From contig NZ_JAGGKB010000001.1 in assembly GCF_017873335.1 (NCBI RefSeq), positions 558,001-622,000 on the forward strand: DNA of 64,000 nucleotides, in the 5' to 3' direction. This DNA comes from Thermococcus stetteri. GTDB taxonomy: Archaea; Methanobacteriota_B; Thermococci; Thermococcales; Thermococcaceae. This document shows, one piece after another, positions 56,786 through 60,716 of this stretch. The notes under the pieces were generated by a model, which saw only the letters and a list, made by a program, of their open reading frames with translations, was not told the DNA's origin and made no database searches. Position numbers and translations under genes: made by a program. Position 1 is the stretch's first letter. Every line of letters starts with the position of its first letter.

Positions 56786-57163
56786 ATGGCGACCTTCAAG
56801 CTGGTTATATCAAACCCGAAGAACGGAGTTGCAAAGCAGGTTGAGATAAGCGGTGCAGAAGCTGACAGGCTCATTGGAAGGAGAATAGGCGAGGAGATCC
56901 CGGCAAGCGAGCTCGGCCTCAACCTCTCCGAGATATTCGGTGAGGAGATCCCGGCCGATGCCAAGCTCAGGATCACTGGCGGAACCGATAAGGACGGCTT
57001 CCCAATGAGGCCCGACGTCCACGGCCCAAGGAGGGTTAAGATTCTCCTCTCACGCGGCCCCGGCTTCAGGCCCAGGGAGAGGGGCGAGAGGAGGAAGAAG
57101 ACCGTCCACGGCAACACCATAAGCCCGAACATCGTGCAGATAAACATGAAGATCGTGTTCTGA
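56786..57163 (+). CDS. rps6e: 30S ribosomal protein eS6
   Basis: The 125-residue archaeal S6e has [28 protein letters not shown], and the family motif [47 protein letters not shown] second GEEIPA direct repeat (about 40 and 58) is a family trait. It is a small-subunit component. ATG 56786 follows GGTGGGAGG. Confidence 0.95.
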
Positions 57164-57341
57164 CCTTCTCCTTAATTTTGCTTAACTTCTTTTAATGTCA
57201 ATGTTTTCAGTTCTTTGTGTTGAATCTCTATGCAACCCTTTGTCCGGATTCCTTTTGATTGGTTCTACATGAAAGACGTAACTCTTGAGTAAAGCTATAC
57301 TCAAAAAAGCTAACAATTATTACACAACATAGTTAGAAAAG

Positions 57342-57393
57342 TTTATAAAAACAAAGTGATTAAGAGGTACTACAAACAATCTCGAAGAGGTGA
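57342..57393 (+). promoter_or_regulatory. Strong promoter and SD of the decayed peptide locus
   Basis: TTTATAAAA (57342-57350), preceded by a purine-rich AGAAAAG BRE, and SD GAGGTGA (57387-57393), 5 nt before GTG 57399, form a complete expression signal. A CTAAC/GTTAG dyad (57310-57314, 57332-57336) lies just upstream. The signals are intact although the reading frames that follow are broken. Confidence 0.6.
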
Positions 57394-57398
57394 ACGCA

Positions 57399-57638
57399 GT
57401 GAAGTGGAAGCCCTTAATGGCGGTCCTGTTAGGACTGCTGATTAAAGTTTGACGCAGGGTACGGCAGACATGGAGTAATTACTTTAGGAATGAGTAATCT
57501 CGACAACTTTATTGTTGCATTCCTCGGCAATTTAGGAGCTAAAAATGGGTCAATAAACTCGTTGAATTCATATCCAAGGGTCGACTATCTGCTTTAGGAG
57601 AGGCACTTTCAGTAGTTACAATTTTGGCCTCGGGGTAA
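57399..57638 (+). pseudogene. Small amphipathic peptide gene, frameshifted
   Basis: GTG 57399 starts KWKPLMAVLLGLL, a signal- or leader-like segment, then stops at 57450. From 57448 another frame reads FDAGYGRHGVITLGMSNLDN and FIVAFLGNLGA. From about 57543 a third reads KWVNKLVEFISKGRLSALGE and ALSVVTILASG, then a stop (57636-57638). Removing one A at 57444-57446 and adding one A to 57541-57545 joins all three into about 79 residues. The product would be hydrophobic and amphipathic with a short leader, the style of a leader-peptide-borne antimicrobial. No family match can be claimed. Confidence 0.5.
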
Positions 57639-57666
57639 ACATCGACGCTCTGTCCTTTACGGAGGT

Positions 57667-57987
57667 ATGAAAATTGTTCGTTCTATATTTTCTTTACTAG
57701 CATTTACTCCATTTACTGGAATAATAGCAATATTAACGGGACTTCCGTTTGTTAAGATTGACACTAAAACTAAACTTGCTTATTCTCTCCTTGGGTTTAT
57801 TTTGGGGACTATTTCGGGGGTACTCCTTTGGGGGGGACTCGTGGATTTTCGAAGAGCTGAGACTTGGATACCGAGAACAGGGAATATGGGGTTTTGTTGG
57901 AGGCACCCTGATTATACTGTTGTTGTCTTTTGTTGTCTTTACTAGTTGCATGGTTCTCCGAAAAAGGCAGAAGGAGGACACAACTAT
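57667..57987 (+). pseudogene. Membrane protein gene, frameshifted at a G7 run
   Basis: ATG 57667 (SD GGAGG directly before it) begins IVRSIFSLLAFTPFTGIIA with two membrane spans. After the G7 run at 57830-57836 the frame goes off. The next frame reads DSWIFEELRLGYREQGIWGF and VGGTLIILLLSFVVFTSCMV, a sensible third span. Six Gs would restore one frame. An overlapping ATGA near 57986 would couple it to the next fragment. Possibly an immunity or export protein of the preceding peptide, by position only. Confidence 0.5.
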
Positions 57988-58453
57988 GAAAGTAGAGACA
58001 CAAGGATTCAGTAGCGTTTGTTTTGTTTTAATCCAGATTTTGGGGTTTTATGTTATGCTTTAGGATAATAGATGCTTCCATATGGAAGATATGGACAGCA
58101 ATTATAGGGGTTGGATTTAGGTTTCTTTTACAAATTTTGGCCATTGAAGTTGTTATCTGGATAATAACCAGGATACAAAGCCACGTCTAAGGATATAAAA
58201 GTAACCTTTATTCCGTTTTTGATTGGTGGTGTTTTCTGTACCTTACTTAGGGGTGTGAACTAGTTTGTTTGGAGTGCTCCTTATTTCACTTCGCTAAAAC
58301 TTGTTTTGGAATCCTTGATTATGAGTATAGGATGGTTCACGTCAGTTTACATACTAGGAAGAAACGTAAGTTCAAAAACTTCAAAGATAACAGGATACAT
58401 TAGCATCAATAGGGAGTGGTGTTGGTGTATACATCCTCATGCCACCAACCTGA
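57986..58453 (+). pseudogene. Second membrane protein gene, multiply disrupted
   Basis: ATG 57986 (GGAGG 8 nt upstream) starts KVETQGFSSVCFVLIQILGF and stops at 58061. Other frames continue it: ASIWKIWTAIIGVGFRFLLQ (stop 58188), then TSKDIKVTFIPFLIGGVFCT with an in-frame TAG at 58261-58263, then WSAPYFTSLKLVLESLIMSI, and finally TLASIGSGVGVYILMPPT with a stop at 58451. Together these would make about 150 residues with five spans. At least three frameshifts and one nonsense codon argue for true decay here. Confidence 0.5.
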
Positions 58454-58565
58454 AACAATCAAAAACAACAATATGTAGTCCCAATCTGCCTGCCTAAAAT
58501 CTCAAGGGCACCATGAAGAAACCTTAATAAGCGCCCGCCTTTTCTACTCATTAGAGGTGAGAGAG

Positions 58566-59798
58566 ATGGCGAAGAAGAAGGAGTTTAGGCAGGCCGAGGT
58601 CAACATCGGTATGGTTGGTCACGTTGATCACGGTAAAACAACACTCACGAAGGCCCTAACTGGAATCTGGACTGATACACACAGCGAGGAGCTGAGGAGA
58701 GGTATTACAATCAAGATAGGCTTTGCCGATGCCGAGATAAGGAAGTGTCCGCACTGCGGAAGGTACTCCACCTCTCCGATCTGCCCGTACTGCGGCCACG
58801 AGACCGAGTTCGAGAGGAGGGTTTCGTTCATAGACGCTCCGGGCCACGAGGCGCTGATGACGACCATGTTGGCAGGGGCTTCCCTCATGGACGGCGCAGT
58901 CCTCGTCATAGCTGCCAACGAGGGAGTAATGCCCCAGACGAGGGAGCACCTGATGGCCCTCCAGATAGTAGGCAACAAGAACATAGTCATAGCCCTCAAC
59001 AAGATTGAACTTGTTGACAGGGAGAAGGTCATGGAGCGCTACCAGGAGGTCAAGGAGTTCGTGAAGGGCACCGTTGCTGAAAATGCACCCATAATCCCGA
59101 TTTCAGCTCTCCACGGTGCGAACGTTGACGTCCTTCTCGCGGCGATAGAGGAGTTCATACCGACTCCAAAGCGCGACCCGAACAAGCCGCCCAAGATGCT
59201 CGTTCTTAGGAGCTTCGACGTCAACAAGCCCGGAACACCGCCGGAGAAGCTCGTCGGCGGTGTCATAGGTGGTTCGATAGTCCAGGGCAAGCTGAGGGTC
59301 GGAGACGAGATCGAGATAAGGCCCGGCGTTCCATATGAGGAGCACGGCAGGATAAAGTACGAGCCGATAACGACGGAGATAGTGTCGCTCCAGGCCGGCG
59401 GGCGCTTTGTGGAGGAAGCCTATCCTGGAGGTCTCGTGGGTGTAGGCACTAAGCTCGACCCGTTCCTCACGAAGGGCGACCTGATGGCCGGAAACGTCGT
59501 CGGAAAGCCAAGGAAACTACCGCCAGTCTGGGACGAGCTCACACTCGAAGTCCACCTGCTTGAGCGCGTCGTTGGAACTGAGGAGGAGCTCAAGGTCGAG
59601 CCGATAAAGAGGAGGGAAGTCCTCCTGCTCAACGTGGGCACTGCCAGGACGATGGGCCTCGTAACCGGCCTCGGAAAGGACACCGTTGAGCTCAAGCTCC
59701 AGATACCGGTCTGCGCCGAGGTCGGCGACAGGGTTGCCATCAGCAGGCAGGTCGGGAGCAGGTGGAGGCTCATCGGTTACGGCTTCATAAGGGAGTGA
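58566..59798 (+). CDS. Translation initiation factor aIF2, gamma subunit
   Basis: The 410-residue GTPase delivers initiator tRNA to the ribosome. It has G1 [14 protein letters not shown] (near 18-31), a zinc knuckle [17 protein letters not shown] (near 57-73), G3 [11 protein letters not shown]4 NKIEL and C-terminal beta-barrel domains II and III. ATG 58566 follows GAGGTGA by 5 nt. It heads an operon with a PIN nuclease gene. Confidence 0.96.
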
Positions 59799-60264: not shown

Positions 60265-60492
60265 TCAGGGGTCGTTCAGAAGTTGTATGAGCTCCTCTGT
60301 TGTGATACCAACTTCCCTCATTATCACCTTTAGGAGGCCGGTTTTTAAGCGCTTATGAAGGGGGATTACAACAATCTTCCCAGAATTATGAATAAGCACC
60401 ACGTGAGAGCCTCGCTACCTTATAGGAGTATAACCGAGCTTTTGGAGAGCTTTTATCAGCTCGACTCCTGAAACGTCCCTTGGAAGCTTCAC
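60265..60492 (-). pseudogene. HicA-type toxin, internal stop at codon 26
   Basis: The minus-strand frame from GTG 60492 (GGAGGT 6 nt upstream) encodes KLPRDVSGVELIKALQKLGY, then TPIR, a TAG at 60417-60415, then RGSHVVLIHNSGKIVVIPLH, KRLKTGLLKVIMREVGITTE and ELIQLLNDP. The GSH motif with catalytic His and the double-stranded-RNA-binding-like fold are those of HicA mRNA interferases. The stop replaces the Gln usually before RGSH (CAG to TAG is one change). The frame is otherwise intact. It overlaps the hicB-like gene by 4 nt. Confidence 0.8.
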
Positions 60493-60716
60493 ACGGAGAC
60501 CTCCGCAATCTGAACGTTATTGCGGCGCTTAAGCTTCCTCATTGCATCCTTCAGCTTCTGTTCCTCAACAACCTCAAGATACAGCTCGATCGCTTCTTTG
60601 ATGTTCCTCAAAACTTCTTCTTTCGTCTCACCCTGGCTGACACATCCCGGGAGCGCTGGAACTTAGGTAACGTAGCCGCCCTCCGGCTGAGGCTCTATGA
60701 TGACCCGAAACTTCAA
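60489..60716 (-). pseudogene. HicB-type antitoxin, internal stop at codon 18
   Basis: From TTG 60716 (GGTGAGG upstream) the frame reads KFRVIIEPQPEGGYVT, then TAA (60665-60663), then VPALPGCVSQGETKEEVLRN and IKEAIELYLEVVEEQKLKDA, ending in a basic tail. This is the HicB antitoxin core, where the stop sits in the usual GGYxxxxPxLPGC motif. The TAA is one change from TAC or TAT (Tyr). TATA-like TTTATAACC lies upstream on the minus strand. Both members of the pair are thus hit by single nonsense changes. Confidence 0.8.

Follow-up and report, generated by a model that had tools for sequence, protein, structure and literature searches.

Within the window, the stretch of 64,000 nucleotides of the Thermococcus stetteri genome analysed here, the genes rpS6e (ending at 57163) and aIF2-gamma (starting at about 58557-58566) are separated by a gap of 1402 bases with a GC content of 0.39, compared with 0.54 for the window as a whole. 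In a profile of 500-base segments, GC ranges from 0.36 to 0.44 within the gap and from 0.49 to 0.58 in its flanks. A TATA-type promoter element (57335-57350) and a ribosome-binding site precede a GTG start at 57399. Dozens of intact genes have a promoter-leader region that matches this promoter, ribosome site and start codon, and the promoter layout is the one present 5' of most leader genes. The GC profile and this match bear out an earlier note on the sequence, which had described an AT-rich gap with a promoter and a ribosome-binding site, and six-frame translation of the gap yields the gene pieces named there (Table 1).

Table 1. Features between rpS6e and aIF2-gamma; positions are those of the window.
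Feature	Position	Strand	Evidence
AT-rich insertion, rpS6e to aIF2-gamma	57164..58565	+	composition; gap survey in relatives
Promoter: ATACTCAAAAAA element and BRE/TATA-like AGAAAAGTTTATAAA	57297..57350	+	side-by-side upstream sequences; occupied sites
Ribosome-binding site GAGGTGA	57387..57393	+	sequence; common to leader genes at other loci
Gene A remnant, part 1: Sec-type leader VKWKPLMAVLLGLLI	57399..57443	+	tblastn to intact A of genome G031, 14/15 residues
Gene A remnant, part 2: codons about 155-187 of intact A (LKFDAGYGRHG...)	57442..57540	+	tblastn, DNA alignment
Gene A remnant, part 3: C-terminal hydrophobic stretch with ...FTEV end, two further frames	57543..57667	+	tblastn
Gene B remnant (membrane protein of about 105 aa)	57667..57979	+	tblastn; profile matches
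Gene C remnant, first part (polytopic membrane protein of about 155-160 aa), damaged start region	58020..58172	+	tblastn; profile match
Gene C remnant, rest, in other frames, with in-frame TAG at 58261-58263	58171..58447	+	tblastn; profile match
aIF2-gamma promoter region, right edge of insertion	58516..58565	+	local alignment, 49/50 bases identical to the empty site of genome G016

The pieces belong to three genes, A, B and C, and lie in the order given in the earlier note, with the frame breaks and the single in-frame TAG reported there. In A, about 139 codons are deleted between the signal peptide and the C-terminal part, so that the leader joins codons 155-230, and the frame changes again at about 57541 and 57625-57635. 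The second part of A is 82-85% identical to intact A (tblastn). Because the leader codons run straight into codons 155-187, the amphipathic peptide with a leader (about 79 residues) that had been proposed is the deletion product of a far larger secreted protein; translated and DNA alignments identify it as an artefact of a protein of about 230 aa, and there is no such gene product. The B remnant has lost its N-terminal residues, contains one frame break around 57830, and is 55-58% identical to the B proteins of genomes G031 and G023. Identity to intact C is 40-48% for the first and 43-50% for the second part of the C remnant (tblastn in each case). The fragments score 63-96 bits against intact relatives, compared with 27 for the best of 300 shuffles. 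It is practically certain that 57164-58565 represents a dead A-B-C cassette of three genes.

Other Thermococcales do possess intact homologues in conserved order, for which the earlier note had proposed searches; they were found by a DNA search of the genus and by reading the matching loci in other Thermococcaceae. The A-B-C cassette is complete, in this order and on one strand, in G010, G023, G031 (two tandem sets), G061, and G011. Intact A is a secreted protein of about 230 aa (229-235 aa) with the leader MKWKPLMAVLLGLLMVGVTAGSA. By a simple hydropathy count, intact B (about 105 aa) usually has two or three and intact C (about 155-160 aa) three to five membrane spans; the three-span and five-span proteins read earlier from the fragments thus hold as small polytopic membrane proteins, with less fixed numbers of spans. 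DNA matches to the gap occur in 39 of the 61 genomes of the genus, chiefly in the leader region and in few of them in the body, and a profile of A retrieved the full-length protein from about 20 loci. Among intact copies, dN/dS is 0.04-0.26 where dS is measurable. Around the A-B-C cassette of G023 (L026 4585-8819) lie an additional, internally deleted nnr gene (NAD(P)HX epimerase/dehydratase) and the nnr upstream region, as if the cassette had been gained by recombination at nnr. In G028 (L067 1327-3974), an A-class cassette is followed by a second, different set of B- and C-like genes that has no A of its own and may be an array of orphan partners.

Family searches and structure models were run on intact relatives of the broken genes. 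A, B, C, and the other bodies found behind the same leader (see below) have no match above cut-off in Pfam, NCBIfam, PHROGs, or PADLOC; specifically, no toxin, bacteriocin, immunity, or defence family in Pfam, NCBIfam, or PADLOC matches the cassette proteins. The phage, plasmid, and IMG/VR viral-contig collections, from which close records may have been withheld, contain no cassette match, and a scan of GTDB genomes with the A alignment gave no confirmed match. The DNA pattern of the leader was found at six loci, all titled Thermococcus or Thermococcaceae. A circular or peptide bacteriocin, the type of system to which the earlier note had compared the locus, was rejected because the short peptide is a deletion product and intact A lacks a Pfam or NCBIfam match. 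Circular bacteriocins are recognised by a precursor of about 60-110 aa together with a model match; intact A has 229-235 aa, carries a Sec-type signal peptide, and is matched by no bacteriocin family.

The profile of A detected the leader in 56 of the 94 Thermococcaceae genomes and in no other genome of the class (0 of 21). Common to these loci is a module of promoter, ribosome site, and the leader MKWKPL..AVLLGLLMVG, and comparison with intact loci places window positions 57297-57443 within it. Conservation includes the promoter and the 5' untranslated region (ATACTCGAAAAAAA, TTTACTTATAGTAAAAGGAAAAACTTATAAGG, and TTGCA..ATTGCAGACAAC). This leader precedes about a dozen unrelated secreted bodies, and the downstream partners differ by body class: the bodies of 56 leader ORFs examined fall into about six groups with several members and six singletons, and the types of partner recur within the groups. 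Class A is accompanied by a multi-span protein of 75-130 aa and a five-span protein of about 160 aa, the class of 180-aa bodies by a single-span protein of 290-310 aa, a subclass of 222 aa by a nine-span protein of 369 aa, the 294-aa class by a three-span protein of about 105 aa, and the class of about 420 aa by a single-span protein of 185-210 aa. The cassette is a member of a polymorphic cassette system, so far found only in Thermococcaceae. This system apparently has been undescribed until now; no earlier description was found in the literature searched, mostly papers accessible without subscription.

Among pairs of A proteins with less than 60% identity, identity at four-fold sites is 0.59 in the leader vs. 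0.30 in the body, and it is higher in the leader in 92 of 97 pairs, which are not independent of each other. That four-fold sites are conserved in the leaders and saturated in the bodies suggests cassette swapping, and would fit a role of the leader as a recombination handle for exchange. As the main alternative, the codon conservation of the leader could reflect, at least in part, a constraint on translation initiation. An inverted element, TTGCAT..ATGCA, lies at most 260 bases 5' of the leader gene in 15 of 55 cases and at several chromosomal sites (for example L079, L066, L058); it is a possible regulator site. At L175 (2376-5838), an ORF for another secreted protein and genes for multi-span proteins and an ABC ATPase lie downstream of the leader gene, an arrangement that also occurs in some bacteriocin loci.

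The gap between rpS6e and aIF2-gamma is an insertion hot spot, one of few fixed intergenic sites of the cassettes. It is empty at 46 loci (66-189 bases, median 107) and filled with about 0.9-3.7 kb in 16 genomes including that of the window, and in nine genomes the two genes are not adjacent. Eleven of the 16 filled sites contain a leader gene (broken in the window), four contain only remnants of bodies or membrane proteins, and one contains an unrelated ORF. In the closest genome by rpS6e, G016, the site is empty (85 bases), and of the gap sequence it has just the final 50 bases in common; G012 and G057, close relatives whose rpS6e genes are 96-97% identical, carry at this position a body of 424 aa that belongs to another class. 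Cassettes also recur in the nnr/regulator/amylase region and in the KBL-RimI region. The earlier view of a decayed locus was thus correct with respect to the decay, but the locus is not peculiar to one genome, as the site receives insertions recurrently. Elsewhere in the window, between the genes of a PIN and an HD-domain protein, two very small ORFs on the minus strand (60265-60611) have the look of a HicA/HicB-type toxin-antitoxin remnant. The same PIN/HD-domain gap contains a leader cassette (L065) in G009.

A same-strand membrane-protein gene is located directly 3' of A in all 23 full-length A loci, among them that of G009 where the leader is out of frame. B and/or C also occur without A at six loci (G003, G013, L174 of G010, G051 with a split copy, G043, and G080). 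Over the short distances between orphan and cassette copies, dN/dS is 0.2-0.4, a range based on few changes. One-sided retention of a partner is the behaviour of immunity genes, and the six partner-only loci are suggestive of an immunity role of the partners. The orphans could also be chance leftovers of decay, the G051 copy itself being split. The genome of the window possesses an A-C pair on its contig 6 (L180 3104-4572), and the C gene of this pair recurs without A in another genus (L176 3917-4735) with 99.1% DNA identity over 1138 bases, which, judged by this identity, is a recent transfer between genera. The C gene at L176 adjoins transposase-like remnants. At L028 (2301-6121), an orphan B-C pair directly follows genes for a radical-SAM protein, an ABC ATPase, and a permease; these are chance neighbours or, possibly, a peptide-modification locus. 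A function of the radical-SAM and ABC genes as RiPP machinery was set aside, because they are absent at the other A-B-C loci read.

The AlphaFold2 model of A, based on 18 aligned sequences, is a confident beta-sandwich (pLDDT 81, pTM 0.77) with ten strands, three short helices (173-215), and then the last strand. Sequence searches of solved structures and Foldseek searches against the PDB and viral models returned only generic beta-sandwiches, with TM scores of at most 0.4. For a second body class, AlphaFold2 gave no confident model (pLDDT 39). Many bodies contain a hydrophobic, often Gly/Ala-rich segment at 65-92% of their length. A hydropathy mark of 1.6 is reached by 21 of 51 bodies, and the segment is weak or absent in some classes. 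One unrelated body class shows a weak Gly-zipper match below the Pfam cut-off.

Our best guess, to which we would give about even chances, is that the cassette encodes a secreted membrane-active antagonist and its membrane-bound immunity partners. The signal peptide would export A via Sec, and the beta-domain of A, together with the Gly/Ala-rich hydrophobic helical segment near its C-terminus, may act on the membranes of competing Thermococcales. B and C would stay in the membrane of the producer and protect it in the manner of the immunity proteins of pore-forming colicins. Homologous recombination that swaps bodies and partners might use the near-identical promoter and leader as its handle. 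Cassettes are inserted and decay at a small number of fixed intergenic sites, where they also seem to be exchanged. We favour an antagonist because of the partners in 23 of 23 A loci, the six partner-only loci, and the hydrophobic helical segment in A. However, the lack of matches to toxin, bacteriocin, or immunity families and of a convincing fold match argues against this reading, as do the body classes without a strongly hydrophobic segment and the single-span partners, which differ from colicin immunity proteins. What stands of the layout drawn in the earlier note is the likeness to a secreted antagonist with immunity partners, whereas the peptide or circular bacteriocin does not. More tentatively, and with more doubt than confidence, we extend the antagonist reading to the whole family: its secreted killers would be membrane-active and interchangeable, each with cognate immunity proteins in the membrane, and would be recombined via the promoter-leader module at fixed chromosomal sites.

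A rather unlikely but serious competitor of the antagonist reading takes the bodies for VARTIG-like variable proteins of the cell surface, which would serve in self/non-self recognition, in adhesion, or in escape from attaching viruses; the partners would then give no immunity but help to export, fold, or anchor the secreted body. In the same archaea, the VARTIG modules are known to combine a variable secreted protein with membrane proteins encoded downstream of it, and their function was left open (PMC8416519). The model of A, a generic Ig-like sandwich, has pilin and cohesin-like modules among its weak PDB matches. However, A has no terminal anchor segment, the C-terminal VARTIG motif is missing from all 46 bodies (the longest of 483 aa), and partners dedicated to export or anchoring should hardly persist without A, as they do at six loci. 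It is improbable that a common Sec signal peptide and a strong promoter were merely placed on unrelated ordinary secreted proteins by lineage-specific duplication, with no single system behind them. This would agree with bodies that are unrelated by sequence, at least one class of which (455-483 aa) lacks a recognised membrane partner in the sequence examined, but it does not predict that conservation at the DNA level extends jointly over promoter, 5' untranslated region, and leader, that silent sites are conserved in the leader and saturated in the bodies, or that cassettes recur at the same intergenic sites with a partner type that tracks the body class. A remnant of a small mobile element or provirus with these genes as cargo is very improbable despite the patchy distribution, the recurrent insertion sites, and the near-identical DNA in different genera, in one case beside transposase-like remnants, since the cassettes read, intact ones included, contain no integrase or replication gene and have no match in the phage, plasmid, or IMG/VR collections.

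Inter-archaeal weapons are known chiefly from halophiles and Sulfolobales, and we know of no earlier system of this kind in hyperthermophilic Thermococcales. The cassettes would offer a genetically tractable candidate weapon system for hyperthermophiles, with family-wide, swappable secreted proteins and orphan partner genes. The system would also explain many unannotated signal-peptide proteins in Thermococcus genomes, and the shared leader is a simple means to find every member. The locus in the window is merely a dead copy, whose worth is the lead to live cassettes.

Among known systems, circular bacteriocins of the AS-48/uberolysin type likewise have small membrane proteins beside the secreted product, but the intact product of the cassette has about 230 aa and a predicted cleavable Sec-type leader. 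Pore-forming colicins are secreted proteins with a hydrophobic hairpin and an adjacent immunity protein of about 110-180 aa with three to four spans, and orphan immunity genes occur. In the cassettes, a polytopic neighbour gene with a putative immunity role lies at 23 of 23 A loci, and a hydrophobic segment is found in many A-class bodies and in some other classes, but is weak or absent in others. The cassettes differ from colicin loci in that they are archaeal, share no sequence match with colicins, use a Sec signal instead of lysis release, and combine a beta-sandwich body with two or more membrane partners. Polymorphic toxin systems have the same combination of a constant N-terminal trafficking part, variable bodies, and adjacent partner genes. 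However, the constant part of the cassettes is just a signal peptide, no known toxin domain was detected (Pfam, NCBIfam, PADLOC), and there is no cassette array behind one large toxin. The nearest described module is VARTIG (arCOG07710) of the Thermococcales, whose lead proteins mostly exceed 500 aa, contain multiple Ig domains, and bear the motif D[ND]NxxxG[GD] at the C-terminus (PMC8416519). The bodies of the cassettes have 161-483 aa, A is a single sandwich, and none of 46 bodies contains this motif in its last 40 residues. Nevertheless, both are confined to Thermococcales, both place a hypervariable secreted protein first and small membrane proteins behind it, and both form recently acquired islands with pseudogenes.
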